Below, piece by piece: positions 2,253 to 59,074 of a DNA stretch of 64,000 nt; the stretch's first letter is position 1, and each line of letters starts with the position of its first letter. Source of the stretch: Paracyclopina nana (lineage: Eukaryota > Arthropoda > Copepoda > Cyclopoida > Cyclopettidae); the NCBI GenBank assembly GCA_019096065.1, contig JAGUCH010000002.1, positions 5,344,501 through 5,408,500 of the forward strand, in the 5' to 3' direction. The notes under the pieces were generated by a model. It did no database searches. It worked only from the letters and a program-made list of their open reading frames with translations, and was not told the DNA's origin. The position numbers and the translations under genes were made by a program.

Positions 2253-5200
2253 TCAACATTTTTTGAGCGATCCCCTCGTTTTCATTAATATATCTTTGAT
2301 TGTCAAGCATTCGCCCACGGGCACTCCATAGCCATGAAAAAGTCCTTGTGGATTGCTAGGCGTGACACAGTCGGCTTGTGGCTCTTTACGCATAACTTTA
2401 TCAACATCGACTCCAGAGAAAAAAGCTACATCGAGGGGCATACTATTCATTCCCAATTTTTTGCAGAACATTGCCCTCACAAGTAGGTTGGCAAATTGCA
2501 GGGCCAATCCAGCTCGATACGCATCTTTTTCAGCAACCAAGTATCGCACCTCATCGTGAATAGAAATGACAAATCTGGCTTCTATATCATAATCTTCCAG
2601 CAGCCATTGCATGGCAGCCAGTAAGAGGTGCAAATAATCCACAGCTGAACTCTGAACGACCCAATTTATCCGGCTGGGCAAATAGTCATTGCCAACAACC
2701 TTTGATTCCAAAGCTCTGGATACGGCACAACCCAATACAGGCGTCTTAGCCTGCCATGTCAATGCAATTTCCTCCAATTTGTTGAAGGTAAACGACTCGG
2801 AGCCACCAAACCAAATGGCTCTCTTCGTGATTTGGCTCCGAAGTTCAACATAGTCATGAGTGGCCATGCTTTTCTTGATGGGACCCATCATCTGAGAGAG
2901 ACTGTGAAGGTTTTCAAAGGTTATCTTGTCTCCTTCATATGGAATGCTGAAATTGTCTGCAACTTCCATGCCTGCTTCACTAAGCGTAAATGTGGTTGAC
3001 GCATTAAGCTTCAGCTTTGTAAGATCGTCAAGAATGAGAAGGTCAAGCTTCAGCCGTTCATTCATGATCTTGGATAGCTTTGATTTCTCAACTATCACAC
3101 CATTTGTGAAATCCTTAGAGCCAAAATGAATGTTGTAGCACATGAGGCCAACTCTGTTGAGCTCATATTTTCGGTCACCTTTAGTCTCATGATACATCTT
3201 ATTGGCCAGGTTCACCGACTCTCTATCAGAAAGATTCGGGTTAAAATTGCGCAGAAGTTGGCTGGCAAACTTGACTCCTGCTCCATAAATTCTTCCATAA
3301 TTAAGAACTTTGGCCTCATTTCTAGTGACTCCAACCGTCTTCGCTGTGGCCGAATGCAAATCTGTACCATCGTTTTTGTTTCCCTGTTTCACATGAGTTT
3401 TAAAAAATTATTTTAATAGGCTATCCAAGTAATTGATAAGCACTACTGATGCAACTAAGGTGTGTTGCAAAAAATTAGGACTAGTTTGACGGCCTGTAAC
3501 TCCAAACCAAATTAAGCGCAGCTTTTCAATTTTGACTATTGAAAAGGTTTGTAGCATTTCAAATTGGTGTTGGGCTTGTCGACATGTAATCTGGTTCCGG
3601 AGATATAAAGCAAGGTCTCAATACTTTTCCCCCAAGCTGTTTACCCCTGATATGTTTGCCCTAGGCGGTTTGCCCCTGTAAACGTTTGCCCCTAAGATTT
3701 TTGTCCCTAGAGACAGTCACCCCCAAGACATTTGCACTTAGGATTTTTGCCCCTAGAAAAGTTTGCCCCAGAGATTTTTGCTCCTGAAGACGCTTGCCCC
3801 TTAAATGTTCGCCCCTGGATATATTTGCCCCTTGGATTTTTGCCCCTAGGGATGTTTGCCCCAGGCACACAGCCTAAAATAAGTCAAAATTTTAAGGATA
3901 AGATTACATATTGCCTCAATCCATTCAGCTTATTAAATTATTAATAAAACTATTACTAATAAAAAAAGTCCACAATGTCAAGGGCCAATGACTGATTCCG
4001 TAAAGAATCCATTCAGTAGACCCGAGAGCTTTCTGCAAATGTTATGAGCCATTTGGAGGGTCTACCCCTAGGTAGTCACTGTAACTAAGAGAGAATGGGC
4101 TAAAAGTTGTCGTCATGCGTGCGCACTGTGCTCCAAGTGGCTGAAATGCGTTTTTAGTAGGTAACTTTGGAGGAAAATTGAGCAACCTTCCCTTTATTTA
4201 TTTATTTATTTTTTGCACAGAGTCAGCCAAACATTAGTACTTTCAAATAAATAAACAAAAAAATACACTTTACACTTTTTTGTTTGTTTGAGGGCAGATA
4301 TTGCCCATTAAAGTTAGCCAATTTTGGCCCTTATTACTTTGTTAAACAGACTTTGAATATAAGAGCTAAAAAAATTTATTATAATAATAGGATCTCATGA
4401 GCAATATTTATTTTTGTCACTTTTTATTCCTTCCTTCCTTATGATATACTTTCTTCAACATGGCGAATTTACTTATTATAGACTATAAAACATTTGAAAT
4501 CCAAATCTTATGCAGGGATGTTGATCAAGGATCTTTCCGTGTGCTAGTACCAAAAATGTATCTCAAAAACGGTTTTTGAAAGCATAAAAAATTGTTCTTA
4601 GCCAAGAAACAAACAAGTAAACAAAAAAGTAAAGAGCCAGTACGCAAAAAAAGGAAACAAAAGCGTAAAAAAATAATGAAAACGGTCTTGCAAAAACGGT
4701 TTTGTGTGGTACTTTTTTTGTGCCTCAAAACCGAAAGTGACCACATGGATAGGTCCCAAATACGCAAACTTTTTCATTAAAAATATACTGACTCCATTTC
4801 AAGTGTTACATTGAGCCTATTTTAGATATATTCATTCATTACATTAATTTGATGCAAAAGAACAAAAATATACAGTTTGGAATGAAATTCACCCAGATTT
4901 CGTATTTGGTGATGAACACTAGCTGCATTCACATGGCATCACTAATACCAGGGCATGAGCTCAAGAAAAAACAATAAATTCATTATATTTTTGCCATCAG
5001 GTATCTCCATGTTGATAAGGTCGACACATTCAATAAGATGAAAGGATTAATCTAGCATTTTATGGCTAATTCTAGCAAAAGTTGAGGTAAAAAGATTTAT
5101 TTCAGCACTTGAGTACTACATACCCAGATCTACCCAGATCCCAAACATCCTGATGATGCATCAAAAAAGTACCTAATAAGCCTAACTGTTTGATGTTTGG

Positions 5201-8200
5201 ACCCATGTTAGCTCTAGTAGAATGGCGGTAGTTTTCAAATTAAGGTGCACACTTTGCAAATATTTTCAAAAGTGCTCTTAAAGCTAGGATAATATAGTTT
5301 TATTACTAAAGTAGCCCATATTTTACCCTATTGCGTTGTTTGAGCGCGATTGCTTCTCCACATTACAGACTGATTGAGGGCCAACGCACTTCGCAAATGA
5401 AAAATAACTAGGTTAAGGCGTCCATAAATGGACAGCGGGGGGCGGGCCTACGGTTTTGAGCAAAAGTTTGTACTAATTTTGTACCATCATAACTATTAAT
5501 TATTTTTCTCTACCAGCAACCGAAAATCCCTGATAAGGTTTCGATTTCAATAGTGCTCAGTTTATTTCTCTTCCAAGTCTACCACGTAATAAGCCATTGG
5601 AGGGACAAACTTTTTGCTAGATGGCGCTTTTTGGGCAAGTATATTTGGAAAAACTGCCGCGCGCGAAACTTGTCACGTGATCAGGAGCGGCAATTTGATT
5701 GACTCACCAGCGGAGCCAGGCTAGAAAAAATCGGTTTCAGCAATGAAAAGCTTGGAAATTTGTGTGAGTTGCATATGGTTTTATGGCTTGAAAGGGTGCC
5801 ATTTTATCTGTAGATTATGTCATATTAATATAAAGTTTTAAGAATTAGGGCACCAAAAGTTAAAACAGCCTATTTGTGATCGCCAATGTAGTGCAGCCAT
5901 GTCAAATTTACTTGCTCAAGTTTCCTGGCTAGATAGCACTGCGAATCTAGCAACTTTTTTTTTTTCTATCCAAGGTTGGTTGATCTAAGGACTATATGTT
6001 CTCATAGTCGATCCAAGAACCGTTTGTCTTGTCGATCCAAGTACAGTTCATTTTTCTTATCTAACAAAGTTCATGTCAGTCCTGGTCTATCCAAGGATTA
6101 TGTGTTATAACAGTCGATCCAAGGATGCTCTGTCTCGTCAATCTGGGGACTGTCCATAGCAGTAGTTGATCCATGGATGATATGTTTTGTCAATACAAGG
6201 CCAGTTTGTCATAGTCTATCCACAGATGATCCATTGTCGATCCAAGGGTAGGAGTCCATAGAAGCCACAGACCCGTCAAGTGAGCATGTGTTGACTTGGG
6301 TCACTTTATGATGGATCAAAATAGTAGGTCGAGTCCATCTTCGAATTTCAACCTGGGATTTTTGGTGATTGTTAGAGAAAAATGAATCCCTATCACCCTC
6401 AACAAAAGTTAGACCCCGTGACAAATCCCTGATAGGTCAGTAATAATTAGAGAACCTCGCAAATAGCTTATTCCACAAATTTCTCCAGCCAAGTTTGATG
6501 AATAATCAATAAATGAATTGTTTCTGATTAACCCTCTCAGTCATAATTGAAAAGTAACTGTCCACATTGGAACTAGTAAATTATTTGGGAGCCCTGTGTG
6601 TATACTTTCAGCTGGCAACCTGAAATTTGGCAAGTGCATTCCTCTCCTCATCGTGCATGATCATTATTGGCGCCATTTCTTGATTTTCCGCCAAATGACA
6701 GACTTTCATTTTTCTCTGCTCCCAATTAACAAAATGAGCTGAATTTATTGATTGTGACTCTTATTTTGCCAGGGCTACAATATGTATTTGCAACTTTTTT
6801 CCTGATTCTGATCCCCAAGGGTACTTCTTTATAAGCATTTTTAGTATATTTGCAATATCTCCAGTAGGCCTTAGCCAAATAAGCTGATCACTGTGACAAC
6901 ACTGACTATGCTAGTCTTTCTGATTACACTAAAGACGCTGGATGATGTAAGAGACATTATTGGACCAATCAAAATCAGGTGCAAATTTGCAATGACCAAT
7001 CAGAAGTAAGTATTTTGTTGTCGTTTTCTGTTCTTGCGAAACAAGACAATTTTTTTAAGGGTCGTGTTAAGCATAAAGTTTATCATATTTTGCAAAACAA
7101 AATCGCTGCTTCATCTTTTGAGACATTTTCTGCGAAGAAGATTATGGAGCAACATTTTAAGCCTACAAAACGATGGGTTTATTGATGAACATATTGAAAA
7201 GCTCAATTTTATGGCGGCTTGTACTTTTGCACCAAGAAAATGTCATGCCGCTCTTACTTCATCTAGCCTCTTAAGATTACACTGTACACATTAAATATAC
7301 AGAGTAGCTGATCTGGATGAACACTTTGAAACTGATAATGGGTGGCCATACTTGTATTGCCTAGAACATACAATAGTGTCTCTAGATAGACTACAACAGA
7401 TAGTCCAAAGATTGACAGTAAAAACTTAGTCCTTGGATTGACAAAACAGAACTGTCCTTGGATCGACTGCTCTGATGTAGAAGAGTCCTTGGATTTACAG
7501 TTGAAACATACAGTCTATGGATGGGCTAGAAGGATGTATATGATTTGCCACCCCCAAAGATACTATGTTATTCTAGTCTATCCAAGGATGATCATAACAA
7601 AAACATGCCATGGGCCTACAATTTTGAAGAATCACTTAAGGGTAAAAATGATACTTATAAAGTTATGGGGAATGCAAAATTAGGGCTCCACGCTAAAATT
7701 AACTTCATTTGGCCAAGGCTTGCTAGAGATATTGTAAATATACTAAAAACGCTTGGTACAAGTACCCTTACCAAATCGAAAAAAAGTCATTAATACAAAT
7801 TGTAGCCCTGGCAAAATGGGAGCCGCACATAAAAATTCAACTCTTTTTGTTTCTTGAGAGCAGAGAAAAATAGAAGTCTGTCATTTGATGGGGAAAAAAA
7901 TGGCCCAAATAAAGATCATGCACTATTGGGAGAGGAATGCACATGCCAAATTTCAGGTTGCCTGCTCAGTATATGCACAGGGCTTACAAATAATCATACT
8001 AGTTCCAATGTGAACGTCTCATTTTCATTTGATTCTGCTAAATGTGGAGGGTGGGCCTTCGGCCCACTCCCTAATTACTATGTAATGGCAAGCCTACGGC
8101 CTGCCCTAAAGTGTTCAACTAAGTTGCAGATAATTTGATTCCGCTAAATGTGGAGGGTGGGCCTTCCGCCCACTCCCTAATTACTATGTAATGGAAAGCC

Positions 8201-11200
8201 TATGGCCTGCCCTAAAGTGTTCAATTAAGTAGAAGATAATTAGATTCCGCTAAATGTGGAAGGTGGGCCTTCGGCCCACTCCCTAATTACTATGTAATGG
8301 CAAGCCTACAGCCTGCCCTAAAGTGTTCAATTAAGTAGCAGATAATTTGATTCTGCTAAATTTGGAGGATGGGCCTTTGGCCCACTCCTTAATTACTATG
8401 TAATGGCAAGCCTATGGCATGCCCTAAAGTGTTCAATTAAGTAGCAGATAATTTGATTCCGCTAAATGTGGAGGGTGGGCCTTCGGCTCACTCCACAATT
8501 ACTATTTAATGGCAAACCTACAGCATACCATTGAAGCTTCATGTTAATTGGCAGGCCTACTGCCTGCCCTAAAGTGTTCAATTAAGTAAGTAGCAGATAA
8601 AATTGAGGATAAAGTATGTGTCTCAGGTGGCTCACTGGTAGAGTGTCTGGCTGCAAAACAGACTGTACCAGGTTGGAATCCCGCAGGGGTCAGAGAAATT
8701 TTTCCATTTTTCTGGACCACAATTTACTTCCTGGTCGATATCCTGGTCGATATCCTGGTACAGTTTCCTGGTACAGTTTCCTGTCTGGAAATTGGATTCT
8801 GACATAGGTCACAGCGAAATGTGGGGGGCGGGTCGAAGATGAATGACAATAGTTGTTATTTTAAGCATTGACAGTTTTCATATGAACCCAAAATCCAGCT
8901 TAGTTCACTAGATGGCAATCTGGTTGTGGCAGGAACAGTTACCGAAAAAAGCCATTTCATCCAGAACATTTTTATCAATTTTAATTATTTACAGAATAAT
9001 ATGTCTTTTAAATTAAGTCTTGTCTTATTATAACTGATGGAATAATTTTTTTTTATATACAGCCTGTCTGTTCAAAATTGGACGGTATAGGAATCTAAAC
9101 TTTGTGTCACATATTCAAGAAATACAGGACTTATAAATGATATCGTTGCGTTGGAAAGATTGAGTCTTTTCCCATCTTTTTTGTAAAAATAGAAAAATCA
9201 ATTTTAACGGGAAAAACCGAGAAAATTCAATTTTCCCAAGTTAACCCAAAAAATTGTCACGAAAAGCTGATGCATCATTTATTTTTTGCTGTCACGCGGA
9301 ATTCATATTATCATCAAATCATTCTGACACGGGCAAAAGGCAAAAATTGACGGAACCAATCAGATTTGAGAATTAAGGCCCAATGAAAATTAATCTTATC
9401 AATAGAAGTTACCGGGTGACAAGTTGCATACTGACTGCGAGTTTTAACCTCTTTAAGTAGCAAAGTTGACCACCCCACTAAGTATTTTTAGGTCTATCAG
9501 GCCGATTTTGTGTTGCCACAAGGTACTTGAAAATGCTACCTAGTGACGGCCGGGCTCTTGCTAAGAGGTACGAACAGGTTAAGATAAGGTTGCTAATTTA
9601 GGTCGCTTTGCACCTGTAAGCTACCTAAAAGAAGTATTCAATAGCTCAAGATAAGGTTCCTGACATCATGTCACTAGGTTTTGTACAGGTACAAGACCAT
9701 CATGTAGCATTACATGTAAGCAGGTTTGCTTTACTGCTATTCAGTCATGAACAGGCAGCCAATAGGTAATTATAAGTCTTAAGAATAATAATTCTTAAAC
9801 TAGGTATAAAAATACTTGTTCACATTTTTCTGACCTAAAGTGACTGACACCCAATGGGTGACTTAAGACACTTAAGCACATTCAATGTGTGAACAAGCAA
9901 TTATGCTGCAATATACATATTTCACTTATAATTATTTTAGCCCACAAAATATTTTGGCTATAACAAGGTAGTTGATTTTTTAAGTAAAATTAAGCATTAT
10001 TAAGTAAAATACTGAGTAGGAAAGCTCAAAGAGTTGGAAAATGTTGACAAAGAATTTATCATCCATTTTATTCATTAACATTGTTATGCCATTATTGAGA
10101 ATTCTGCAAATACTCAAAATTGAAAAGTAAGGATATGGCTTTTAGCGCCATCTCTTATTGTTCTTAGTAAATACATAAATCATGTGAGGTGCTACTACCT
10201 GGTGTAAGGTGCAAAACAACCTGGCAAAAGGTACAAGACCATCTACCTAGCATCAATCTGGTGACAGTCTGATTTCTCCTAAAATCTAAAAAAATTATCA
10301 GGTGCAAGACCACATTTACAGGTAGGTCGCAAGTAACTGGTCAATGTATAGTGACAACATTATTTCGAATATTTTCTAAACAAATTTGATATGTTGTCAC
10401 TAGGTAAGGTTCCACGAGTGATCAGGTTAAGTGACTAGTAAAAAATTTTAGTGGGGCAGTAGACCAGTTGATAAGTAAAATTGTTAACTAAATTCTAAAC
10501 ATAAAAAGAAGTATTCTTATGGTGGATTAAAAGCATATTTATCTACAGAATTTCAGGCCCTGTTCACCTGCATTATTATCAACAAAATTACGCACGACAT
10601 TATGGTGATATTTGCAAATATCCGGTATTTGAAAAATCATATTTCAGATTTTGACTTCAGAATTGCCCTATTGGCACCAAAAGCCACCCTACACCAATAA
10701 TAAAGTTCTCAGTTTTTCAGTGTTTCTCTCACTCATTTTGCCAAAATAACGACTATAATAAGCAGGTGAACAGGCCCTACCCAAAATAATAGTCATTTTT
10801 GCATCCACAATTTTTCAGACTATATTAAAAACACAACTGCCCTTTTTCGACCACCTACCCGACCTCTAAAAACGGCCATAACTCACAAGGAATGATGATA
10901 TGTCATTTTTTCTTAAACGAAGTCTTTTCAGGCAGCGCAGTTTTTGGCCTAAATTGGTCACTTATGAAAATCTGGCGGGAAATGCCGTGTACTTAATTTT
11001 TCAAATTGACAACTTAAATTTTTTTTTTGGGACTGGGGAGAAGGCTTGTCCACCATAACTACCTGGCAAAGCTATTGACTTTGTAGAGATGAATAGCTCA
11101 AATAGTGCTAAACTGGCTGCATGTACGTACTGCCTACAGATATTTGTCCATTTTGATCTTTGCTTCAATGGGAATATGAGACTGAATTAAAAAGCCAAGC

Positions 11201-14200
11201 AAGGTAAAGACTTTTGAAACGCCCGCTCCATGCTGTCCACATTGTGGACGCCTAAATCTAGTTATTTCTCATTTTGTCAAAAACAAATAAGATGTCCAAA
11301 GGTTCAAGCTTTCCAACGATACCCATTACGCCCCACAATGACTTGAGAGAAAACCTAACCTAGACTTCGTCAACCACCCCTAAACCTATATATTTTCTGA
11401 AAGCTTATGTCCCAAGGGTTCGTTTGAGGGTAGTTAAAAAATCCTGGCATGGCGCTTCCCATAACATCCCCAAAATTTTAAAAAAACCTCTAGCTCTCTT
11501 CGGTGCGCTTTTTTCGCTGAATAGAGCTTCAAACACCCCTCTTAAAATCAAAAGGGCTAACTTTTTTTATTTCATAAGCAAATCGCTAGAATGGTCAGGA
11601 AAGGAGACATGGAGTGACTAATTTTATATCAAGCTGTCACAAACGTTTTGCTACTTGAAAAATTGTCCCTCTGTACCTCTTTTCCTAGCAACTTGCTTAT
11701 GAAATTTTAAAAGTTAGATCTCTCAATTTTGTTGGGGGTTATTGAAATGCGTGATAGCAATAAAACAAAGTGGTACTGAGCTAGAAGTTTTTCAAAATAT
11801 GTTATTGGAAGCGCCAGGCCAGGATTTTATAACTACCCCCAAACAAACCCTTGGGACATAAGCTTTCAGGAAATAAATAGGTTTAGGGGTGGTTGACGAA
11901 GCCTAGTTTAGGTTTTCTCTCAAATCAATGTGGCCCCGAAATTCATGAATTTATAACACAAACTTTTGATTCCCGCACCGTCCAATTTTAAACGGACAGA
12001 CTGTATTTATCACTGAGAAGTACTTAAGTGGTTGGAGAAAAAGCATTTAGACATGTGATCAGAAAAGTCGTCTAAAAAGTGATAAGTTACAGAGAAATGG
12101 TCAGAGTAAGTGAAAAAAGTGGCCAGAGAAAATGAAAAAAAAAGTGTTCAGGGAAAGTAGTCAGAAAAAAGTGATCAAAAAAAGTGTCAGAGAAAGTAGT
12201 CGAAAAGTGGTCAGAAAAAGGGGCATACTGGTAAAAGGCCAATATAAGAGAACAGAACTAAACCCAGTTTAACTTTTTCACCTTAAGTTAACTTGAGTAA
12301 TGAGTCAATGCAGGAACGCACTTCATGGGACATAAGATAAGATAATTCAGACTTAATCCCTGGTGCCGCCATCTCTGGATAGTTTTCTCAGCGACAGGGC
12401 TTTTTCAATGCATTGCAACTTTTCAAATTTCAAACCAAAATCATAACAATTAATCTTATTGCAGAATAATCTGTCTTTTAAATTAAGTCCCCCCACCCCT
12501 CACCCAAAAAAAAAAAATTAAATATGTAATAGGATTGCTTGCAATTGTCTTGGAGAGTCTGTTAAGCTAAAGAAAAGTGAAGTAAATTGTTATACCTGAA
12601 GAGTCATCCAGCCTAAAGCAGTGCTTCCATGCTCTCCCGTGAAATGTGCGTCTCCGATCACAGCTGCAATCCAAAGCTCTTGACTGTCAACATCAGCCCC
12701 AACAAGAGTATATCCTTCAGGAGCGACTACCATTGCCTTAAGCTCTGACCCTACTCGATCCTCCTTCGCATTGGAGGCTGTCAGCCACGTTTTTTCCACT
12801 GCTCGTCTAGTTACAGTTCCTGCTGTGACAATTTGCGGTAAAATAGCCATATTGTCATCGTTAGCCTTGACCACAATCTGACTTCTGATGCGGTCACGGC
12901 TACTCTTCCAATAGGACATCATCTTGCTCACCTTGAGCACCTTTTCTGCCAATTGTCCAGACTCCTCTGGATTATCAGCGTACGTTGACAACACTCCAGA
13001 TTGGATCTTATCTAGAAATGCCTTGCCCAAGGGATTTCCAACGGAGAGCCCCTTGCCATCTTTATGTGGCAGTTGGTGAAAAATACACCCAGGTACATTG
13101 TCAAGCTCAAATCCTATCTCTGAGTGAGGCTTTTTCACCTTTTCGCCCAAAGCATGGAAGTCAGGAGGTTCGCCAATAAAATCAAAGCTGCTCGAGTCTC
13201 CCTTGAAGACAGCAATTTTAGATGACCTTTCCATCATTGACTTGTAATTACTAAGAGGAAATCTAGGGGAATCAAGGTCTTCATCGTTCATGGCTTGCAA
13301 GTCTTGGAAAATCTTGATGTCTTCATGTGGCATCAAGTAGCCCCACTTCATCTTTTCATCTCTATGTATGGGATAGCCCAGCCAGGTAAGTCTAAGCAAT
13401 TTGGGAACTATGGCTTTTGAGTAACCCAAGTCAGCCAGTTTGGGCGTGATGGTATAGTCATATGGACTGCACTGGTCGGTGTACCATCTAGGATACCCAG
13501 GCCTCCTGGGCTGGGTCTTGTACAAGTCCACAGCTCTGTTCAGTAGGGGGAAAAATTTCTTTTCCAATATTTCTATCTCACTCTTAGGCTCTTGAGATGT
13601 CAGCACAGCGTTCAAGGCTTTCTTCGTTCCTTTTTTTATTTTTAGAGGAGCACACTTCCAGTCCAAATCCCAAAGCCAGATATCTTCCTTGTACAAACTT
13701 CCATGCAAAAGCTGGCAAGCCTCATTTGCTTGTCTTGCAATGAGCATCTCTATCTCTTGATCCAACTCAAGAGCTACGTTATCACATTCATCAATGAATT
13801 GGAACCACGACGGCTGAACAGGCAAATATGCATTGCTCATGGTAAGCATGCCCGACAAAGTCACTGGGTGAGGACATCTTTCCCTGAACAGAGGGAAGAC
13901 AATATTAAACACTTGCAAAGTGGCCTTAACATCATTTGCACAATATGTCATCAAAACTTGGAAGTCCTCAACCACGTCCCGGATGGACCCAGAAACGAAA
14001 GTATCTCTGATATCCTTCTGTAGCCTTTTCTCATTTGGCAAGTAAAATTTGTGCACATCATTGAGTCCATTCATGGATGTCTCGGTCATCCATTTAGGAG
14101 AGGCGTCATTTAGCAGAGGATTCCCAGCCTTTTCTGCAACCTTGAACATTCTTTGACTAGATGTCATGCCACCAACAGCGATGTGGAGAGCCATGGTATC

Positions 14201-14887
14201 AAGAAATCTGGTGGCTTTGGGCTGCAACGCATACTGATCACCAATTCTCGCCCTGTCAAAGCTGACATTGTGACCAATCACAAGCGTGGGATCGCCTATC
14301 GGTATCAAGTCATCTTGGCTTAGGCAAAGCTTATTTAATGGTTTCAGGCTCAGGTCGACGAGGTAAGGAGAAACCCATGAGTACCATGCGTCAGGCGACA
14401 CAGCCGCAGCCATAAGTGGCCATGGTCCTTCCTGAACACACAATTCAATATCAAACACAAGTGCTTGCGCATCAGGAACGTTTATGCTATGAGCTTTTCC
14501 ATTTTTATCGTATTTTGTCCAGCCTGAGTTGAACGACCACTGCTCTGGAAACGGTGGAATTTGCGAAATTTTGAGAGAATTTGCTGCATTCACGTAGGGC
14601 TTGATTTGTTGCTCAGCTATGATACGAAAGTGCTCTTCAACGTTTCCGTGAAGTGTAGGCAAGGAATCCACTGAGATTTGAGTTGCTTGTGGGGTTGAAG
14701 TGTCGGGCTTGATTTTGAAGGCCGACAGGTGTGATAAAGCCTCATTTTTGAGGCTGTCTTTGATTTTTTGTCGCAACTGTGGCTGGCCAAATAATTGCTC
14801 ATGTAATTGCGAAGGTATGAGCGGCACTCCAAAAGCATTTTTCACATGCATTGACATGCATCGGCGAGGCACTGAGGAGAACATCAT
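2253..14887 (-). CDS. POLG: mitochondrial DNA polymerase gamma, catalytic subunit
   Basis: Two exons, 12596-14887 and 2253-3383, join in phase 0 to give about 1140 residues, close to the insect enzyme. The protein replicates mitochondrial DNA. Exon 1 carries a short Arg-containing N-terminus suited to mitochondrial import, Exo I (FDIEL, about residue 146), Exo II (IGHNVSFDR, about 206), Exo III (YCANDVKATL) and polymerase motif A (GADVDSQELW), and ends at GWMTLQ. Exon 2 opens with GNKNDGTDLHS and carries motif B (KVLNYGRIYGAG) and motif C (SIHDEVRYLV). The join reproduces the family sequence across motif A-B exactly. I chose the ATG at 14887; a GTG 33 bp upstream is in frame but not a likely start. 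What is odd is the single 9212-bp intron when other introns here are about 60 bp. Confidence 0.95.
3629..3866. repeat. degenerate 16-17 bp minisatellite (TTTGCCCCTAG-like)
   Basis: About fourteen imperfect copies of a unit near GTTTGCCCCTAGGAT follow one another; copies differ by a few bases and by small length changes. The minus strand stays open through the array and would encode a Gly/Leu/Lys-rich repeat, but there is no start context or family match, so I treat it as non-coding. Confidence 0.75.
4526..4757. mobile_element. MITE, family with AAGGNCCTTTCC termini (copy 1)
   Basis: Ends are inverted: AAGGATCTTTCCGTGTGC on the left and the complement of GGGACCTATCCATGTGG on the right. The interior repeats CAAAAACGGTTTT in both orientations. 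A second copy, much alike over its whole length, lies at 31537-31757 in the intergenic region before RagA. No coding capacity, about 230 bp. The class is not assigned. Confidence 0.75.
5975..6255. repeat. degenerate minisatellite built on GTCGATCCAAGG
   Basis: Eight or nine irregular copies of GTCGATCCAAGGA-like words spaced about 25-40 bp apart. The same word reappears in inverted orientation (CCTTGGATCGAC) at 7380-7590, inside the neighbouring inverted-repeat element. Confidence 0.6.
6563..8012. mobile_element. long-inverted-repeat element with CACATTG termini (1.45 kb)
   Basis: The left arm begins CACATTGGAACTAGT and the right arm ends ACTAGTTCCAATGTG. The arms pair over roughly 300 bp (about 6563-6880 with 7690-8012), including matching blocks around GCCAGGGCTACAAT and CAAATTTCAGGTTGCC. 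The loop contains the inverted GATCCAAGG words. No transposase frame survives. The CACATTG end is shared with the elements at 11334 and 45758, so I group all three. Confidence 0.75.
8031..8560 (+). repeat. 106-bp tandem satellite, five copies
   Basis: Units begin GATTCYGCTAAATGTGG at 8031, 8137, 8243, 8349 and 8455, a constant 106-bp period. Most units carry GTGGGCCTTCGGCCCAC, a perfect 7-bp stem with a TTC loop, and a second weaker hairpin at AGCCTACGGCCTGCCC. Degraded sequence continues to about 8600, just before the SINE. Some substitutions fall in the stem and its complement. Confidence 0.9.
8618..8805 (+). mobile_element. tRNA-Cys-like SINE
   Basis: The first 75 bp resemble a tRNA. There is an A-box-like TGGCTCACTGG, an anticodon arm TCTGG-CTGCAAA-ACAGA whose 7-nt loop would present GCA (Cys), and a B-box-like GGTTGGAATCC. 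The acceptor arm does not pair, so it is not a working tRNA gene. The tail has short tandem copies of CCTGGTCGATAT and CCTGGTACAGTTT. Only one copy is in this window. Confidence 0.7.
9473..10456. mobile_element. element with CCCCAC termini (0.98 kb)
   Basis: The left end is CCCCACTAAGTATTTTTAG and the right end complements CCCCACTAAAATTTTTTAC. The interior contains AGCGCCATCTCTTATT, which also occurs inside the larger CCCCACCAGAA element at 47376-49264, so these are one family. It is non-coding and nested in the 9058-12006 element. Confidence 0.65.
10556..10777. mobile_element. MITE with GGCCCTGTTCACCTGC termini
   Basis: A 222-bp element with 16-bp inverted ends (left GGCCCTGTTCACCTGC, right complement of GGGCCTGTTCACCTGC), followed inward by matching TTATTAT tracts. 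It has no coding capacity and lies inside the 9058-12006 element. Confidence 0.75.
11334..11932. mobile_element. fold-back element with CACATTG-like termini
   Basis: Two arms of about 290 bp face each other around a spacer of about 30 bp; blocks such as CTGAAAGCTTATGTCCCAAG and CAACCACCCCTAAACCTAT are near identical between arms. The flanks are GCCC on both sides, a possible 4-bp target duplication. A relative with the same arm words lies at 45758-46364. Small open frames inside are not genes. Confidence 0.8.
12045..12225. repeat. degenerate short repeat (AAGTGGTCAGAGAAA-like)
   Basis: About ten imperfect copies of a 13-17 bp purine-rich word, GTGGTCAGAGAAA, in one orientation. No coding or RNA signal. 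Confidence 0.55.
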
Positions 14888-15299
14888 TTCCACACATAAA
14901 TACAGTTTTTCAGAGGTCACACGAGCTCTCAGACTAGTTCAACTTAATCAACTCATTTACTAATGAGTTGAAGTATATCGGTCTTCTGCCTTCTCAGTTT
15001 CTCCGTTCGCGCTGTGTTTACAAATAGTAATGGTCAACCTTTCCTACTTGTCAATCGATAGAACATAAACTAATGTTAAGTGTCAAGTAGCTGAGATTAT
15101 ATTTTCCACTCTCAGCTATTTGTTATTGCCGATTGTCAACAAAGTTAACAAAGTGCTTTAAAAGTGATGACAGAAAACTGTTTCAAGCGCGTACTGGTAT
15201 TTTAATGGCGTAAACTAGATGCTAGTAACAGTTCTTGCTCTATAATCAAAGTGAGGAGATCGTCAATCGGACACTTTGTGCCTCACTCGACTTACGAAA
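14888..15299. promoter_or_regulatory. divergent POLG / CAAP1 promoter region
   Basis: The two start codons face away from each other 412 bp apart, so both promoters must lie here or overlap the first exons. No TATA box at a convincing distance. Nothing else is recognised. Confidence 0.45.
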
Positions 15300-33739: not shown

Positions 33740-34281
33740 AGCGAAATTGTCAGAGTTAAACTAATAATCTTGGTTTGACTTGGGAGTAATCACAGGTATG
33801 CTTTCTAATCACCAATGGACTACCTTTTTAGCGTAATCATTAACAAACAAGACAGGAGATTTCTTTAAACTACTAAGAACTATGAAATCAATTTAGAGCT
33901 GGAAGGGTCATGTAATTTTCAATTTACTTATTTTATTTTTTATTTTATTTTTTTGCTTCCATCTTGTTTCTTTTGCAGTTTGAATTTACCGCCAATTTCT
34001 ATGTTTACAGAATTTCATTTTAGGAAGTCGAATACGGATATTTTGGGCTCATTTGTGCTTCAATCTCGATTCTAAATGGCCTGATACATAATGTTTCGTA
34101 GAATCCTGCATTTTTAATACTATAAGTAAATAATTCAAGGTTATTTGATCAAACATTGGTGCAGAGTAAGAATTGTAGATACATAAAAAGCTCAGCATCA
34201 AAAGGGGATCGACACACTACCAATCCGTCAATTATTATTTATTTCTTTTCATCTCACCGCTCTCAGTGATTTTTCATCAAA
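33740..34281. promoter_or_regulatory. divergent TMEM107 / PIGF promoter region
   Basis: Start codons lie 542 bp apart and face outward. T-rich tracts (TTTTATTTT near 33930) and no clear TATA box. Nothing else is recognised. Confidence 0.4.
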
Positions 34282-35082
34282 ATGTACGATGATGATGAAA
34301 AACGAGTGCAGTTTGGCAAAGTTTATAGCGTCCTTAATTTTGCGTTCTTTGTGATATCTGCTGTTGCTGTGCTCATTTGGAATTTCTTTGACGCTTCCAT
34401 TAGCAACCGTTCATTGTTTATCGCAAAATTTGGAGAGACACTTTCTACATCTACATTTTTGTGGATTCAATTCGCTCTGACCATCAACTCAATTTTCCTG
34501 TCCAAGCGATTGAGTCAATATCGAGGTGCACTTGCACTGCCTCAAGTGGACGAACTCTTTGTCAACTGGAATTCGGTGCAAAAGGCCCCTTTCGCTAGAA
34601 GATTCGGCCTAAAGCTACGATATTACGCCCGGAAATTGACACCCTTAAAGAGAATCGTCAAGTACTTCTCAGCCTTGGCGCTTTCTTGGACTTTTTTATG
34701 TTACATCGTTATATGCTTTGGAGCACCTGTGTGGAGTGAGCATTTGAAAACCGCATCATTTGTGACAGCCCTCTGCAGCTTAACAATTTGGCCTATAGTC
34801 CTGATAGAAGGCCCAGATTTCGACACAGTGCTAAAAGTGTTTCAAGGCCAACCTTCGGAGCTTTTAAGGCTGGTTTTGTACTATCATTGTTGCGGTGGAT
34901 TAATCGGTGCTTGGCTGGGTGCTGTGCCCATTCCCTTGGACTGGGACCGACCCTGGCAAGCGTGGCCTTTAACGTGTGTTCTAGGAACACACCTCGGCTC
35001 GTTGATTGGTCAACTCTGCGCTCTAATAAGCATATTTACTAAAAGAAATAGGAGTTTACTGTTGACCAAGAAAGCAAGATGA
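34282..35082 (+). CDS. PIGF: GPI ethanolamine-phosphate transferase stabilising subunit (PIG-F)
   Basis: One uninterrupted frame of 266 residues with about six membrane segments. The C-terminal family signature is clear: YHCCGGLIGAWLGAVPIPL, then DWDRPWQAWPLTCVLGTHLG. PIG-F stabilises the ER enzymes (PIGO, PIGG) that add ethanolamine phosphate to GPI anchors. The vertebrate protein is about 220 residues; the extra length here is in the loop between the early and late membrane segments. Its TGA stop overlaps the ATG of the RAD51D gene (ATGA at 35079-35082), and no polyadenylation signal lies between them, so one transcript probably carries both. Confidence 0.9.
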   Translation: MYDDDEKRVQFGKVYSVLNFAFFVISAVAVLIWNFFDASISNRSLFIAKFGETLSTSTFLWIQFALTINSIFLSKRLSQYRGALALPQVDELFVNWNSVQKAPFARRFGLKLRYYARKLTPLKRIVKYFSALALSWTFLCYIVICFGAPVWSEHLKTASFVTALCSLTIWPIVLIEGPDFDTVLKVFQGQPSELLRLVLYYHCCGGLIGAWLGAVPIPLDWDRPWQAWPLTCVLGTHLGSLIGQLCALISIFTKRNRSLLLTKKAR

Positions 35083-35918
35083 AACTGTCAGAAGTTAGAC
35101 ATGAACTGCTGACAATGGATGTTCGACAAAGGTTGTTGAATAACCATGTCATTTATGTGCACGAATTTTTGGCCCATAATGTCAACTTATTGAGCCTGAA
35201 ATCTGGCCTGAAGTTAGAAGATATTTTTGCTCTGAGACAGTATATTCAAAAAACGTTCATGTCTGAAGTGAAAAGTGTAGAAGAGAGAAAAAATGAACAA
35301 TTTAAAGGGAGCATTTTCAGTAGCCTAAATTACAACTATATTTATGAGCTTTGTGGTCCACCTGGAAGCGGCAAAACTCAAATTGCTTTGCACCTAAGTG
35401 CTAAAATGGCGGATAAAGGCCATACAGTTCTGTACGTAGACACAAAAAACGATTTTTCCCTTGATCGTTTGTCATCTCTCACTAAGTGTACGACTAATGT
35501 GAGGCTGGCCAAAGCTTTTGATCTTGATGAGGTTCTGAAAATCAGTGCCAGCTTGTGCAAAACTAGCACAAACCTTGAGAGCAGTGTGAAGCTGTTGGTT
35601 TTGGACAATATAGCCTCATTGATTTGGCCTCTGTTGGAGGACCAGAACATTGGTCAAGTTTTTGGACAAGTTGCCTTACTCATTACTAATTTACGAAGAA
35701 TTGCGCATAAATTCAACCTTGCAGTGCTTGTCATCAACAACTGGGCCCAAAATCGACCCGCGTTAGGCAAAATCTTCAACAATGCTGCCAACACCAGATT
35801 TGTCATTATGGATCGGTGCATCAGAGTTGACAGGGCTTTGGACAGACCGTTTGGCGAACAAATGAAAATAGTTATCAGCGAAAATTTCATAAAATTGAGT
35901 GAAGCTGATGCTCCCTGA
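35079..35918 (+). CDS. RAD51D: RAD51 paralogue, RAD51D-like recombination ATPase
   Basis: A single-exon frame of 279 residues. Walker A is GPPGSGKT at residues 93-100, Walker B is KLLVLDNIASLI, and RPALGKIFNNAANTRFVIMD matches the RAD51D block PALG...TR. The small N-terminal helical part (LLNNHVIYVHEFLAHN) fits the linker region of RAD51D. In other animals the protein works in the BCDX2 complex in homologous recombination. It is about 50 residues shorter than the human protein, mostly at the ends. Its start codon overlaps the stop of PIGF by four bases and an AATAAA lies shortly after its own stop. The RecA-fold call is firm; RAD51D is the best paralogue by the C-terminal block. Confidence 0.85.
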   Translation: MKLSEVRHELLTMDVRQRLLNNHVIYVHEFLAHNVNLLSLKSGLKLEDIFALRQYIQKTFMSEVKSVEERKNEQFKGSIFSSLNYNYIYELCGPPGSGKTQIALHLSAKMADKGHTVLYVDTKNDFSLDRLSSLTKCTTNVRLAKAFDLDEVLKISASLCKTSTNLESSVKLLVLDNIASLIWPLLEDQNIGQVFGQVALLITNLRRIAHKFNLAVLVINNWAQNRPALGKIFNNAANTRFVIMDRCIRVDRALDRPFGEQMKIVISENFIKLSEADAP

Positions 35919-35928
35919 GCAAGCTACA

Positions 35929-35976
35929 ATAAAACGCAAGGTTTTTCTCAAAGTTTCCGTGATTTTGTCATTGCAG
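35929..35976 (+). promoter_or_regulatory. polyadenylation signal followed by a 3' splice-site-like tract before BCS1L
   Basis: AATAAA at about 35930 is followed by TTTTTCTCAAAG and GTGATTTTGTCATTGCAG ending at about 35975, only a few bases before the BCS1L ATG at 35981. There is too little room for a full promoter and cis-exon. The layout resembles trans-splice sites of operon genes. Confidence 0.5.
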
Positions 35977-35980
35977 TAAA

Positions 35981-37304
35981 ATGGGGTTGCCTGAGTTGCT
36001 TACTTCACTGGCTGACAATCCTTACTTTGGAGCTGGATTTGGACTTTTTGGTGTGGGCGCAGTGGCAGCCATTTCAAGGAAAGGTTCACAAATAAGCTGG
36101 ATTCTTTTCAAGCGGCACTACATGACAACCGTGGAGGTGACATGCAAGGATAAAAGCTACCAATGGCTTCTACAATGGATGACAAAGAAAGGGGCCAAAG
36201 AAACGCAGCATCTGAGCGTCAACACATCGTTCGTCGAGACTGAGAGTGGGAAGGTATCAACCAAGTACGACTTCGAGCCATCAGTAGGTACACATTTCAT
36301 GCGCTATAATGGAACGTGGATCAAAGTTGAAAGGACTAGGGAAAATAGGATGCTTGATCCGTGGGAAACTGTGCAACTCACGACGCTCGGCAGGCATCGC
36401 GATCTCTTCGTGGACATCCTTGATGACTCACGAAAAATGGCTATGGATGACCACTCTGGTAAAACTGTCATGTACACGCTCATTGGCAATGACTGGCGGC
36501 CCTTCGGACATCCAAGACATAGGAGGCCCATAAACTCAGTTGTCCTCCAAGAGGACCTTTCAGAAAAAATTGTCGATGATGTAAAAGACTTCATCAAGAA
36601 CCCAAGTACGGCCAGACCATTATTCTCTTTCGGCGGAGTAAAAAAACATTTTTTTTTTTTTGGCTTCAGGTTGGTACAGGGAAAGAGGGATTCCTTATAG
36701 GAGAGGCTACTTGCTGTATGGGCCTCCAGGCTGTGGCAAAACTTCTTTCATTACAGCTCTGGCTGGCGAGTTGCAGTATTCTATATGTGTGCTCAATCTT
36801 TCTGACCGATCTATGTCGGATGACAGGCTCCAGCACAGGCTGGCCGATGCTCCTGAAGACTCGATAATTCTTTTGGAAGATATTGATGCAGCTTTTGTGA
36901 GCAGAGAGGAGTCGGCTGCCTCTGAGGCTGCATATCAAGGACTGAATAGGCTAACTTTCAGTGGGTTGCTAAATGCTATTGATGGTGTGACTTCAACTGA
37001 AGGAAGAATTGTTTTCATGACTACCAATTATATGGATCGTTTGGATCCTGCATTAATTCGCCCGGGAAGAGTTGATGTGAGGCATTACATTGGCTACTGT
37101 GATCACAGCCAAGTCCTGAAAATGTTCCGCAGATTCTATCCGCAAGAATCAATCGAGCTAGCAACAACATTTGCAGATAAAGTGATGGCTTTGGATGTGC
37201 CCATAAGTGCGGCTCAAATCCAGGGCTTTTTCATGTTTTTCAAGGCTGACCCCAGAGCAGCCATTGAAAATGTCTTCCGATTCAAACCAAATATGGTACC
37301 TTAA
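35981..37304 (+). CDS. BCS1L: mitochondrial AAA ATPase BCS1 (complex III assembly)
   Basis: Exons 35981-36605 and 36670-37304 (419 residues, equal to human BCS1L). The N-terminus has one membrane segment ([17 protein letters not shown], about residues 14-30) and the BCS1-specific domain. The AAA module follows: [17 protein letters not shown], Walker A GPPGCGKT at about 225-232, Walker [12 protein letters not shown], the second region of homology [20 protein letters not shown], and [22 protein letters not shown]1 inserts the Rieske iron-sulfur protein into respiratory complex III. The 64-bp intron splits the [18 protein letters not shown] block. It lies 62 bp after RAD51D and 63 bp before a convergent coiled-coil gene. 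Confidence 0.96.
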
Positions 37305-55786: not shown

Positions 55787-56646
55787 ATGGAGGTGTTGTT
55801 TGAAAACTTTGACCTCTTACAAGACTTTTTGCTTAATGTTCCCGTATTTCCATACCTATGGATTCCTCATTGCATACTCATGGCCATGGCCTCGAAATCC
55901 ACTTATGGGCCTCAGTGCAGGGCCTACGCGAGATCCAACCCATTGTCTACCTATGTCAAAACCCTGATTTACACCTTTCCCGGAGGCATTTTGCACGCCA
56001 TTCTCATGGGCCAGCCAGCCTTTGCTTTTATGGCCAGCTTCCCTACGATTGCGACCATGAGCATTTCGTGGTATTTGATCTTCTACTATGATTTCCTCTC
56101 GACTTTCGTCACCCACTTCAAGCTCACTGTACCCATGACAATTGCTCAGGATTTCTTTCGCCTGCAACTTTGCTTGGCTGGAGTGGCCTCAGTGGCCGTG
56201 GACCACCCTACGGCCTTCTTCTACATGACCTTTATGGGCGTCTGCAAAAGTAGTGGATTCATGGTTTTCAAGTACTTGGAGCACGCCCTTGACAACGGCC
56301 TCAAAACAGCCTTTGTTGTGCCCAATCACCCATCCAAAACTTGTGTGCTGGCGTCGGTGGCCTTTGCTGCTCAAACCAGTGGCCTCCTGGACCTAGGAGG
56401 GAACAAGTTGATCCTTTTAGTCCTGGCCTTAGTTGTGTTTAACTTTCGGTTGATGTTTGCCGTTACTACTGACCCATATGAATGTATTGAAGTACCCGTG
56501 TGCAGCCTTCTTTTTGGCCAGCCTCAAGATCCTGCTATGGTGGAGGCCACTAGAAAGAAGGTACTTTATAAAAGCCGCAAGCGTTTATTCAATCATTTTG
56601 TTTTTAAAACTATATCACTTCTATTTATTCTTTGCAGGATAATTAG
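55787..56646 (+). CDS. TMEM38: TRIC cation channel (TMEM38)
   Basis: Exons 55787-56560 and 56638-56646 (260 residues). TRIC channels are ER/SR potassium channels that balance charge during calcium release. Visible family features are several membrane segments, FPGGILHAILMGQP after TM2, SISWYLIFYYDF, the KSSGFMVFKYLEH stretch, LKTAFVVPNHPSKTC and LMFAVTTDPYECIEVPVCSLLFG. The last exon holds just two codons and a stop, spliced at the TTTGCAG that ends at 56637. Unspliced, the frame would run on into DUS1L. The stop is only eight bases before the DUS1L ATG. Which vertebrate paralogue (A or B) it matches best cannot be said. Confidence 0.87.
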
Positions 56647-56654
56647 AAAAGAAT

Positions 56655-58040
56655 ATGCCTCCTCCCGAAGGACACAAAGGCTTCAGACTTTTCCGTGAGG
56701 TCTTGAATGATCCCAAGTATATTGTGGCCCCCATGGTCGACGCCAGTGAGCTCGCGTGGCGGATGCTAGCCAGAAAATACGGTGCTCAACTATGCTACAC
56801 ACCTATGTGGCACTCTGGTGTTTTTGTTCGTGATGAAAAGTACAGAAAGCATGCCCTGGAAACCTGCCCTGAAGATCGGCCTTTGATAGTGCAGTTTTGT
56901 GCCAACAATCCTGACATCTTCAAAAGGGCTGTAGAGCTGACATTGCAGGGGATCCACTGTGACGCGATTGACCTGAATCTTGGCTGTCCTCAAGTAATAG
57001 CAAAAAGAGGCCATTTCGGGTCCTTTCTCCAAGAAGAATGGGAGCTAATATCGAAATTGGTCTCTACAATCCATGACAGCTTTGACATTCCAATTACGTG
57101 CAAGATCCGAGTGTTTGATGACTTGCAGAAGACAATAGACTATGCCAAAATGATGGAGTCGGCTGGTTGTCAGATCCTGACTGTTCATGGAAGGACTAGG
57201 GATCAAAAGGGAGCCTTGACGGGCCTTGCAGATTGGAACAAGATTAAAGCTGTGGTGGATGCTGTGAACATCCCTGTGATTGCCAATGGCAACATTCAGT
57301 ATTTTGAGGATGTCCAAAGGTGCATTGACTTTACTGGAGTCAACGGAGTCATGTCTGCTGAAGGGCACTTGAGCAACCCTGCCATTTTTGCCAATATACA
57401 GCCTCCTAGCTGGCAAATGGCTCTAGAATATTTGGACTTGGTTGATCGATTTCCCTGTCCCCTTTCCTACGCTAGAGGTCATATGTTTAAGCTGCTGCAT
57501 TTCCTGCTTCAGATCAAGACCAACTTTCACATTAGAGACATAATAGCGAGGGGCCAAAGCTTGAGTGAATTTCGGGGAGCTGTTTTGCAATTGAAGGAGA
57601 AATATGAGCCCTTCCATGTTGGATTGAAGGTGTATGAGCCAGATGCCGAGCTGGCAGTGTTCAAGTTGAAGTCATATCCGTGGATTTGTCAGCCATATGT
57701 AAGACCGCCTCCTGAGGAGCACTTGAAAAAAGTTGAAAATGACTTGAAAAAGTCCAAAAGGCCACCTGAAGAATTGCCCTATGAGAGCGGACAAGGGATC
57801 TCAAAAAATAAGCTCAAGAAGCTGGAGAGGAACCCTAATAAAACATTTGGGAAGCCAAGGGAAAGCTGCAAGCTTTGCCTTTCTTGCCCCAACCCATGTG
57901 GAACAAAGTGTGACATGCAGCTATGCAAAAAGTGCTGCAAAAACAAATGCTTTACACAAAGCCTTGACTGTGAAGGCCACAAAATTTGGATCAAGACCAA
58001 GCGTGCAAAGTTTGAAGCAACTTTACGCAAAGCTGAGTAA
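56655..58040 (+). CDS. DUS1L: tRNA-dihydrouridine(16/17) synthase
   Basis: A single-exon gene of 461 residues. The FMN-binding TIM barrel begins YIVAPMVDASELAWRML; the catalytic cysteine is about Cys111 in DLNLGCPQVIAKRGHFG; then CKIRVFDDLQKTIDYAK, LTVHGRTRDQKG and IPVIANGNI follow. A helical domain comes next, and the C-terminus has a Cys-rich cluster (CKLCLSCPNPCGTKCD, CKKCCKNKC) typical of DUS1L. The enzyme reduces uridines in the tRNA D-loop. The gene begins eight bases after the TMEM38 stop, and AATAAA directly follows its own stop. Confidence 0.96.
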   Translation: MPPPEGHKGFRLFREVLNDPKYIVAPMVDASELAWRMLARKYGAQLCYTPMWHSGVFVRDEKYRKHALETCPEDRPLIVQFCANNPDIFKRAVELTLQGIHCDAIDLNLGCPQVIAKRGHFGSFLQEEWELISKLVSTIHDSFDIPITCKIRVFDDLQKTIDYAKMMESAGCQILTVHGRTRDQKGALTGLADWNKIKAVVDAVNIPVIANGNIQYFEDVQRCIDFTGVNGVMSAEGHLSNPAIFANIQPPSWQMALEYLDLVDRFPCPLSYARGHMFKLLHFLLQIKTNFHIRDIIARGQSLSEFRGAVLQLKEKYEPFHVGLKVYEPDAELAVFKLKSYPWICQPYVRPPPEEHLKKVENDLKKSKRPPEELPYESGQGISKNKLKKLERNPNKTFGKPRESCKLCLSCPNPCGTKCDMQLCKKCCKNKCFTQSLDCEGHKIWIKTKRAKFEATLRKAE

Positions 58041-58549: not shown

Positions 58550-59074
58550 GCTGTTTGACGAAAAACTAAATTTTTTACTTGGTCTTCTTTGTCATTGCAG
58601 TAATTCTTTGTATAGCAGTTTTTAAGTGCTGTTGCCTTCGGTTGTATGTATACGGCCGTTAGCGATATCTAAAAACGCCACTTACACCCTACTTTTTGAT
58701 AAAAGAAGCTTGTGCAACACTGTCCGTAAGGTCACTTCTCAGCTGATACTGTCAAAGAGAGTCTATAACTTTGAGGCTTACATGTCTAATGAGAGCTCAT
58801 CTATATCCGGAATAATTATAACTTATGCTCCATATATTGAATCAATAGGACATGAAAAAAATATTTTAGGCAAAAAGATGCTGCAAGTTAAACTGTGATG
58901 TGAAAGAAGCTAAAACCACTTGTTTTCTATTATATTAGATACGAACTGTGAACCGAATTTTCAATTCAGCCAAACTGAGTAGTTGGAACTGAGAAACTAT
59001 TTCACATTTCGTCATGTTTCACTTTAACTTATGAAGGCTTATTGGTTTTTGCTTACGGAGCTTTATGAGTAAAA
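58550..59074. promoter_or_regulatory. divergent YPEL5 / TDRD9 promoter region
   Basis: Start codons face outward 525 bp apart. GTCATTGCAG at about 58600 repeats the word found before BCS1L, but faces away from YPEL5. No TATA box or other gene is seen. Confidence 0.4.

Follow-up and report, generated by a model that had tools for sequence, protein, structure and literature searches.

In the copepod Paracyclopina nana, a PIG-F (PIGF) coding sequence and a RAD51D-like coding sequence lie in tandem on the forward strand and share four bases, the ATGA at 35079..35082 (+), where the start of RAD51D and the stop of PIGF stand in different frames, just as the initial annotation of this DNA had described. 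Here and below, positions refer to the window, namely the whole stretch of 64,000 nucleotides that was analysed. The pair is real and dicistronic pairs are already known; the pair itself is new, and its mechanism is what we infer. As for its expression, one transcript for both genes seems to be best supported by the sequence, since the sole canonical poly(A) signal stands after RAD51D, each gene is the sole match to be found in the genome, and no space is left between the two. We tentatively propose that PIGF and RAD51D are carried by one dicistronic mRNA on which RAD51D is reached by ribosomes scanning past the PIGF start, a proposal that we hold at somewhat less than an even chance.

Both genes had been taken to be intact, and our Pfam and PDB matches agree, with ORFs of 266 and 279 aa that belong to known families. 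The PIGF coding sequence (34282..35082, +) is a single open frame of 266 aa without internal methionine, and its TGA stop occupies 35080-35082. It passes the Pfam PIG-F profile (PF06699) with an E-value of 9e-33 and a score of 114.4 bits, the cut-off being 24.2; the best stretch aligns residues 122-247 to positions 60-182 of the 183 in the profile, the first third of which is unaligned. Human PIGF is Met-poor as well. When the 92-Mb genome (91.95 Mb in 10 contigs) was searched for PIG-F, this ORF was the sole match found, and the cuticle family Chitin_bind_4, which marks an arthropod, gave 80 matches in the same genome; the COX1 family and an 18S pattern gave none. Relatives of PIGF were also sought in contig collections of viruses and prokaryotes, which are silent on other arthropods, and none was confirmed from one viral and 11 other candidates.

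The RAD51D-like coding sequence (35079..35918, +) is likewise a single open frame, of 279 aa, whose start ATG occupies 35079-35081 and whose stop ends at 35918. It contains a Rad51/RecA core with the Walker A motif GPPGSGKTQ, and matches the Pfam families Rad51 (5e-7) and AAA_25 (1.4e-7), each beyond its own cut-off. Among PDB sequences with a single matched domain the top matches are RAD51 homolog 4, that is RAD51D, at 1.4e-11 to 1.9e-11, followed by archaeal RadA (6.2e-7), RAD51B (8e-7) and RAD51C (2.2e-4), so that by PDB sequence scores, used here in place of a tree, RAD51D is the RAD51 paralogue to which the RecA core is nearest. RAD51 homolog 4 is outranked by three fusion sequences of tandem RecA domains, but only because the scores of their four to six repeats, at about 15 bits apiece, are added up. 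For the first 84 residues no match to RAD51D was obtained at E-values up to 10, and the name therefore rests on the core. In human RAD51D the N-terminal region is of a length similar to that of the present protein as counted from Met1. A structure predicted from the single sequence reached a mean pLDDT of 35, which is unusable, and was left out of all searches. When the genome was searched with the RAD51D-like protein its own gene was the sole match found, and a search for the Rad51 family gave seven exon-level matches, one of which is this gene.

The junction itself merits attention as to how much it can tell. In the window together with 20 sampled stretches, 74 stop-to-stop ORFs of at least 200 codons were collected; TGA closes 31 of them and ATGA six, so that the four-base geometry alone is cheap. 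What is not chance is that the ATGA of PIGF opens 279 codons of a known-family protein; the frames opened by the other five ATGA ends are of 283 and 95 codons (both in L019, retroelement-like) and of 12, 14 and 18 codons. Moreover, RAD51D has an alternative start at Met13 (35115..35117, +), whose context acaATGg is stronger than that of the ATG at 35079. If Met13 is the start used, the overlap is incidental and a gap of 32 nt takes the place of the -4 nt between stop and start; the pair is tight whichever start RAD51D uses.

The flanks of the pair bear on where a common transcript might begin and end. Upstream, the neighbour of PIGF is the divergent gene TMEM107 (by Pfam), and the region between the two (33780..34281, +) is the presumed promoter and 5'UTR of PIGF, in which an intron may lie before the gene, with a donor GTAAGA at 34166 and a pyrimidine-rich acceptor ending at 34266. 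Downstream, an AATAAA at 35928..35933 (+), starting 10 nt past the RAD51D stop, is the presumed 3' end common to both genes, its use as a poly(A) site being probable from its position; it is the sole AATAAA in 34200-36050, where no ATTAAA was found. The earlier statement that no polyadenylation signal separates PIGF from RAD51D thus holds for the canonical AATAAA and ATTAAA, which are absent from the PIGF start to the RAD51D stop; weak variants are present inside the ORFs, namely, close to where PIGF ends, ACTAAA at 35038 and AAGAAA at 35043 and 35068, and others within RAD51D. That there is no room for a promoter between the two genes is likewise borne out, the overlap of stop and start leaving zero space. 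The next gene downstream is BCS1L-like (35981..37304, +; intron 36606-36669; Pfam BCS1_N 6e-42 and AAA 6.1e-25); it begins 62 nt past the RAD51D stop, beyond the AATAAA, and since this poly(A) signal intervenes it is probably a unit apart from PIGF/RAD51D. Just before its start, at 35964-35979, lies TTTGTCATTGCAGTAA, which recurs at 58588-58603 beside a gene that we take by eye to be Yippee-like; the recurrence could be chance.

According to the proposed mechanism, transcription would run as one unit from upstream of PIGF to the poly(A) signal that follows RAD51D, translation of PIGF would begin at the first AUG, and RAD51D would come from the smaller share of ribosomes that pass this AUG while scanning. 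Just after the PIGF start there is a short out-of-frame ORF (34289..34354, +) of 21 codons as counted from the first of its three ATGs (34289, 34292 and 34295), which the leaking ribosomes may translate before they resume scanning. Since PIGF has no internal in-frame AUG, they would then meet just two AUGs in weak context before the AUG of RAD51D at 35079 or 35115. These two, at 34698 and 34713, both have T at -3 and belong to a second short out-of-frame ORF of 13 codons (34698..34739, +); after them the next ATG is that at 35079, which has A at -3. Altogether five ATGs occur in the roughly 794 nt that separate the start of PIGF from that of RAD51D, none of them in the frame of PIGF, whose only methionine is the start codon. 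Such scarcity is rare: among 305 windows of 794 nt from 35 long ORFs, a set that leaves PIGF out and surely holds some non-genes, the median count was 17 and 1.3% had five or fewer, and of 512 windows of 265 codons taken from long open frames in the genome sample, five were free of Met.

Several observations nevertheless stand against scanning. The context of the PIGF start, atcaaaATGt, has A at -3 and is not weak, and the three out-of-frame AUGs right after it have A at -3 as well. Moreover, the six off-frame AUGs in PIGF, the RAD51D start included, compare with means of 7.5 and 6.6 (P 0.30 and 0.49) in synonymous shuffles that keep the protein sequence and the codon use. A selective removal of out-of-frame AUGs from PIGF, which was considered, is therefore unsupported, and the AUG scarcity may stem just from a Met-poor protein. 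For these reasons, the counts being as expected and the starts having A at -3, scanning stays ahead of its rivals yet short of an even chance. A stronger form of the proposal, in which both proteins come solely from the one mRNA, leakage by way of the 21-codon ORF sets a fixed low level of RAD51D tied to that of PIGF, and the Met-free frame has been selected for the sake of RAD51D, seems improbable to us.

The initial annotation had offered one mRNA read by reinitiation, or else a splice form, as the routes to RAD51D; its single mRNA is retained here as the probable arrangement, and neither of the two mechanisms fares well. Scanning past the PIGF start, which was absent from that account, fits better than either, given the lack of internal in-frame AUGs in PIGF. 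In coupled termination-reinitiation, a route known from caliciviruses and from a small number of human mRNAs, ribosomes that have completed PIGF would move back from the TGA onto the overlapping AUG and begin RAD51D there, for which the ATGA does place the RAD51D start at the PIGF stop; ATGA ends are, however, common among long ORFs (six of 74, as given above). The sole TGGGA in 34600-35100, a motif that we take to be 18S-complementary, lies at 34942. This is about 137 nt upstream, against about 70 nt for the calicivirus element in the available part of the source (PMC3923131). The same partial source shows that human overlapping ORFs do reinitiate at a low level, as in CASQ2 with a second product 82-fold lower, but the C-terminus of PIGF is basic and ends in KKAR rather than being Asp-rich as in CASQ2 (PMC3923131). 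Nor is the RNA structure of 34930-35100 exceptional (z -1.33, with 22 of 200 shuffles folding as well), and reinitiation through an upstream RNA structure was rejected on that account. Taken as a whole, we regard the reinitiation route as rather improbable. As for the splice form, which would join either a 5' exon near 34166 in cis or a trans-spliced leader before the RAD51D AUG and drop PIGF, a good donor GTAAGA is present at 34166 in the 5' region and AGs occur close before 35079. Yet no clearly good acceptor is seen: the closest AGs (35045-35078) are preceded by tracts with 21-64% pyrimidine, compared with 64-86% in eight introns read from the frames of genes in the window, which served as reference acceptors. 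Candidates farther up have 71% (35030) and 64% (34984), and by score alone both are possible. Among arthropods, spliced leaders are not known to occur outside copepods and amphipods. Such a splice form is unlikely, and it is the reading to which we give the least weight.

In a different arrangement, a promoter within the coding sequence of PIGF would give RAD51D a capped mRNA of its own; with the poly(A) signal at 35928 serving both genes, the RAD51D part of the PIGF mRNA would then be no more than a long 3'UTR. In Drosophila, as far as the available portion of the FlyBase-based survey goes, at 114 of the 159 dicistronic loci at least one of the genes has a monocistronic form too, and the 3' gene is usually made from a downstream promoter (PMC4528330). 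Moreover, such an arrangement requires no unusual translation. On the other side, TATAAA is absent from 34200-36050, and TCAGT, presumably an initiator-like motif, does not occur in the 110 bases that precede RAD51D, although the latter test is weak because TCAGT is not enriched before ORF starts (one of 87 listed ORFs, PIGF not being among them, against 3.7 expected). For the same lack of enrichment, a TCAGT lying 15-19 nt before the PIGF ATG was dropped as a candidate start site of PIGF. We consider the internal promoter doubtful, and prefer the dicistronic mRNA with scanning.

The close packing of genes is not restricted to PIGF and RAD51D. In another pair on the forward strand (window 55787-58040), a gene matching Pfam TRIC (8.3e-24), which we take to be TMEM38-like, is followed by one matching the dihydrouridine synthase family Dus (4.7e-73), which we take to be DUS1L-like. 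The two are separated by 8 nt once the last TRIC intron (56561-56637) is removed, with the TRIC stop at 56644-56646 and the DUS1L ATG at 56655; were that intron retained, the frame of TRIC would extend over DUS1L as far as 56698. Counting from the TRIC start up to that of DUS1L, 19 ATGs occur, of which 12, the TRIC start among them, are in frame, so that tight spacing need not mean scanning; this pair could hardly be served by it, and genes packed so closely in this genome are therefore probably dealt with in more than one way. A mechanical scan for coding-scored ORF pairs in the window and 200 kb gave six pairs within 60 nt, several of which are probably split exons, and one pair with ATGA, in a locus that resembles a retroelement and has a weak match to a gag-type protease. 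Since its score filter missed both PIGF/RAD51D and TRIC/DUS1L, the scan undercounts and yields no genome rate. The retroelement-like locus just mentioned lies at L019 3713-6634 and holds two long frames that overlap by ATGA.

Elsewhere in the window, an ORF matching DNApol_Exo lies on the minus strand at 12590-14920, and a further minus-strand ORF at 2256-3407 is presumably the rest of a DNA polymerase gamma gene. The roughly 9 kb between these two DNA polymerase-region ORFs (window 3400-12600) looks by eye to be filled with repeats, with units of roughly 120 bp repeated in tandem near 8040-8540 and an array of the TTTGCCCC type near 3640-3870, both likewise seen by eye.

Several known dicistronic systems invite comparison. 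Liu et al. in 2000 reportedly described a dicistronic message of two Drosophila meiotic recombination genes, mei-217/mei-218; recombination genes thus occur there too in a dicistronic unit, but both of them act in recombination, whereas PIGF acts in GPI-anchor synthesis. The stoned and Snapin dicistronic mRNAs are said to have been reported by Wall et al. in 2005. In both, according to the available part of one source, the first ORF is poor in internal AUGs and the second relies on leaky scanning (PMC11291117), and an excerpt of another source indicates that in-frame AUGs attenuate the second ORF (PMC3372440). PIGF is likewise short of internal in-frame AUGs; in stoned and Snapin, however, the first start context diverges from the consensus, while the PIGF start has A at -3. 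Bicistronic genes of green algae, in the portion of the source at hand, also combine leaky scanning to the second ORF with an AUG-poor first ORF and in some cases a stop/start overlap, but they belong to another lineage and have a weak first-start context and a short 5'UTR (PMC11291117).

In its accessible part, the survey of FlyBase (Drosophila release 6.04) counts 159 dicistronic pairs, in 45 of which dicistronic transcripts alone supply both products; spacing at the exclusively polycistronic loci, those without monocistronic forms, runs from -34 to 319 nt, and about 82% of polycistronic loci join dissimilar genes (PMC4528330). With such numbers and with overlaps down to -34 nt, the earlier view that two unrelated functions on one transcript are unusual in an animal is overstated, and the spacing of PIGF/RAD51D, be it -4 nt or 32 nt, lies inside the FlyBase range (PMC4528330). 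Such pairs and PIGF/RAD51D have in common that the genes of two proteins, mostly unrelated, follow each other on the same strand with a spacing that may be negative; the difference is that the Drosophila pairs come from cDNA and RNA-seq, whereas the single transcript of PIGF/RAD51D, together with its ends and the scanning route, is the inferred part of the proposal. In the literature searched we found no report of PIGF and RAD51D as one unit, and the part of the FlyBase survey available does not name them among its pairs (PMC4528330).

Taken together, PIGF/RAD51D offers a clear case from a compact arthropod genome in which two unrelated genes, each found once, are joined stop to start, and in which the first gene shows the scarcity of AUGs that is considered to open a second ORF to ribosomes. 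Confirmation of such a case outside Drosophila would help to tell by which route arthropods come to second cistrons, and it would warn annotators that RAD51D can hide in what is presumed to be the 3'UTR of PIGF.
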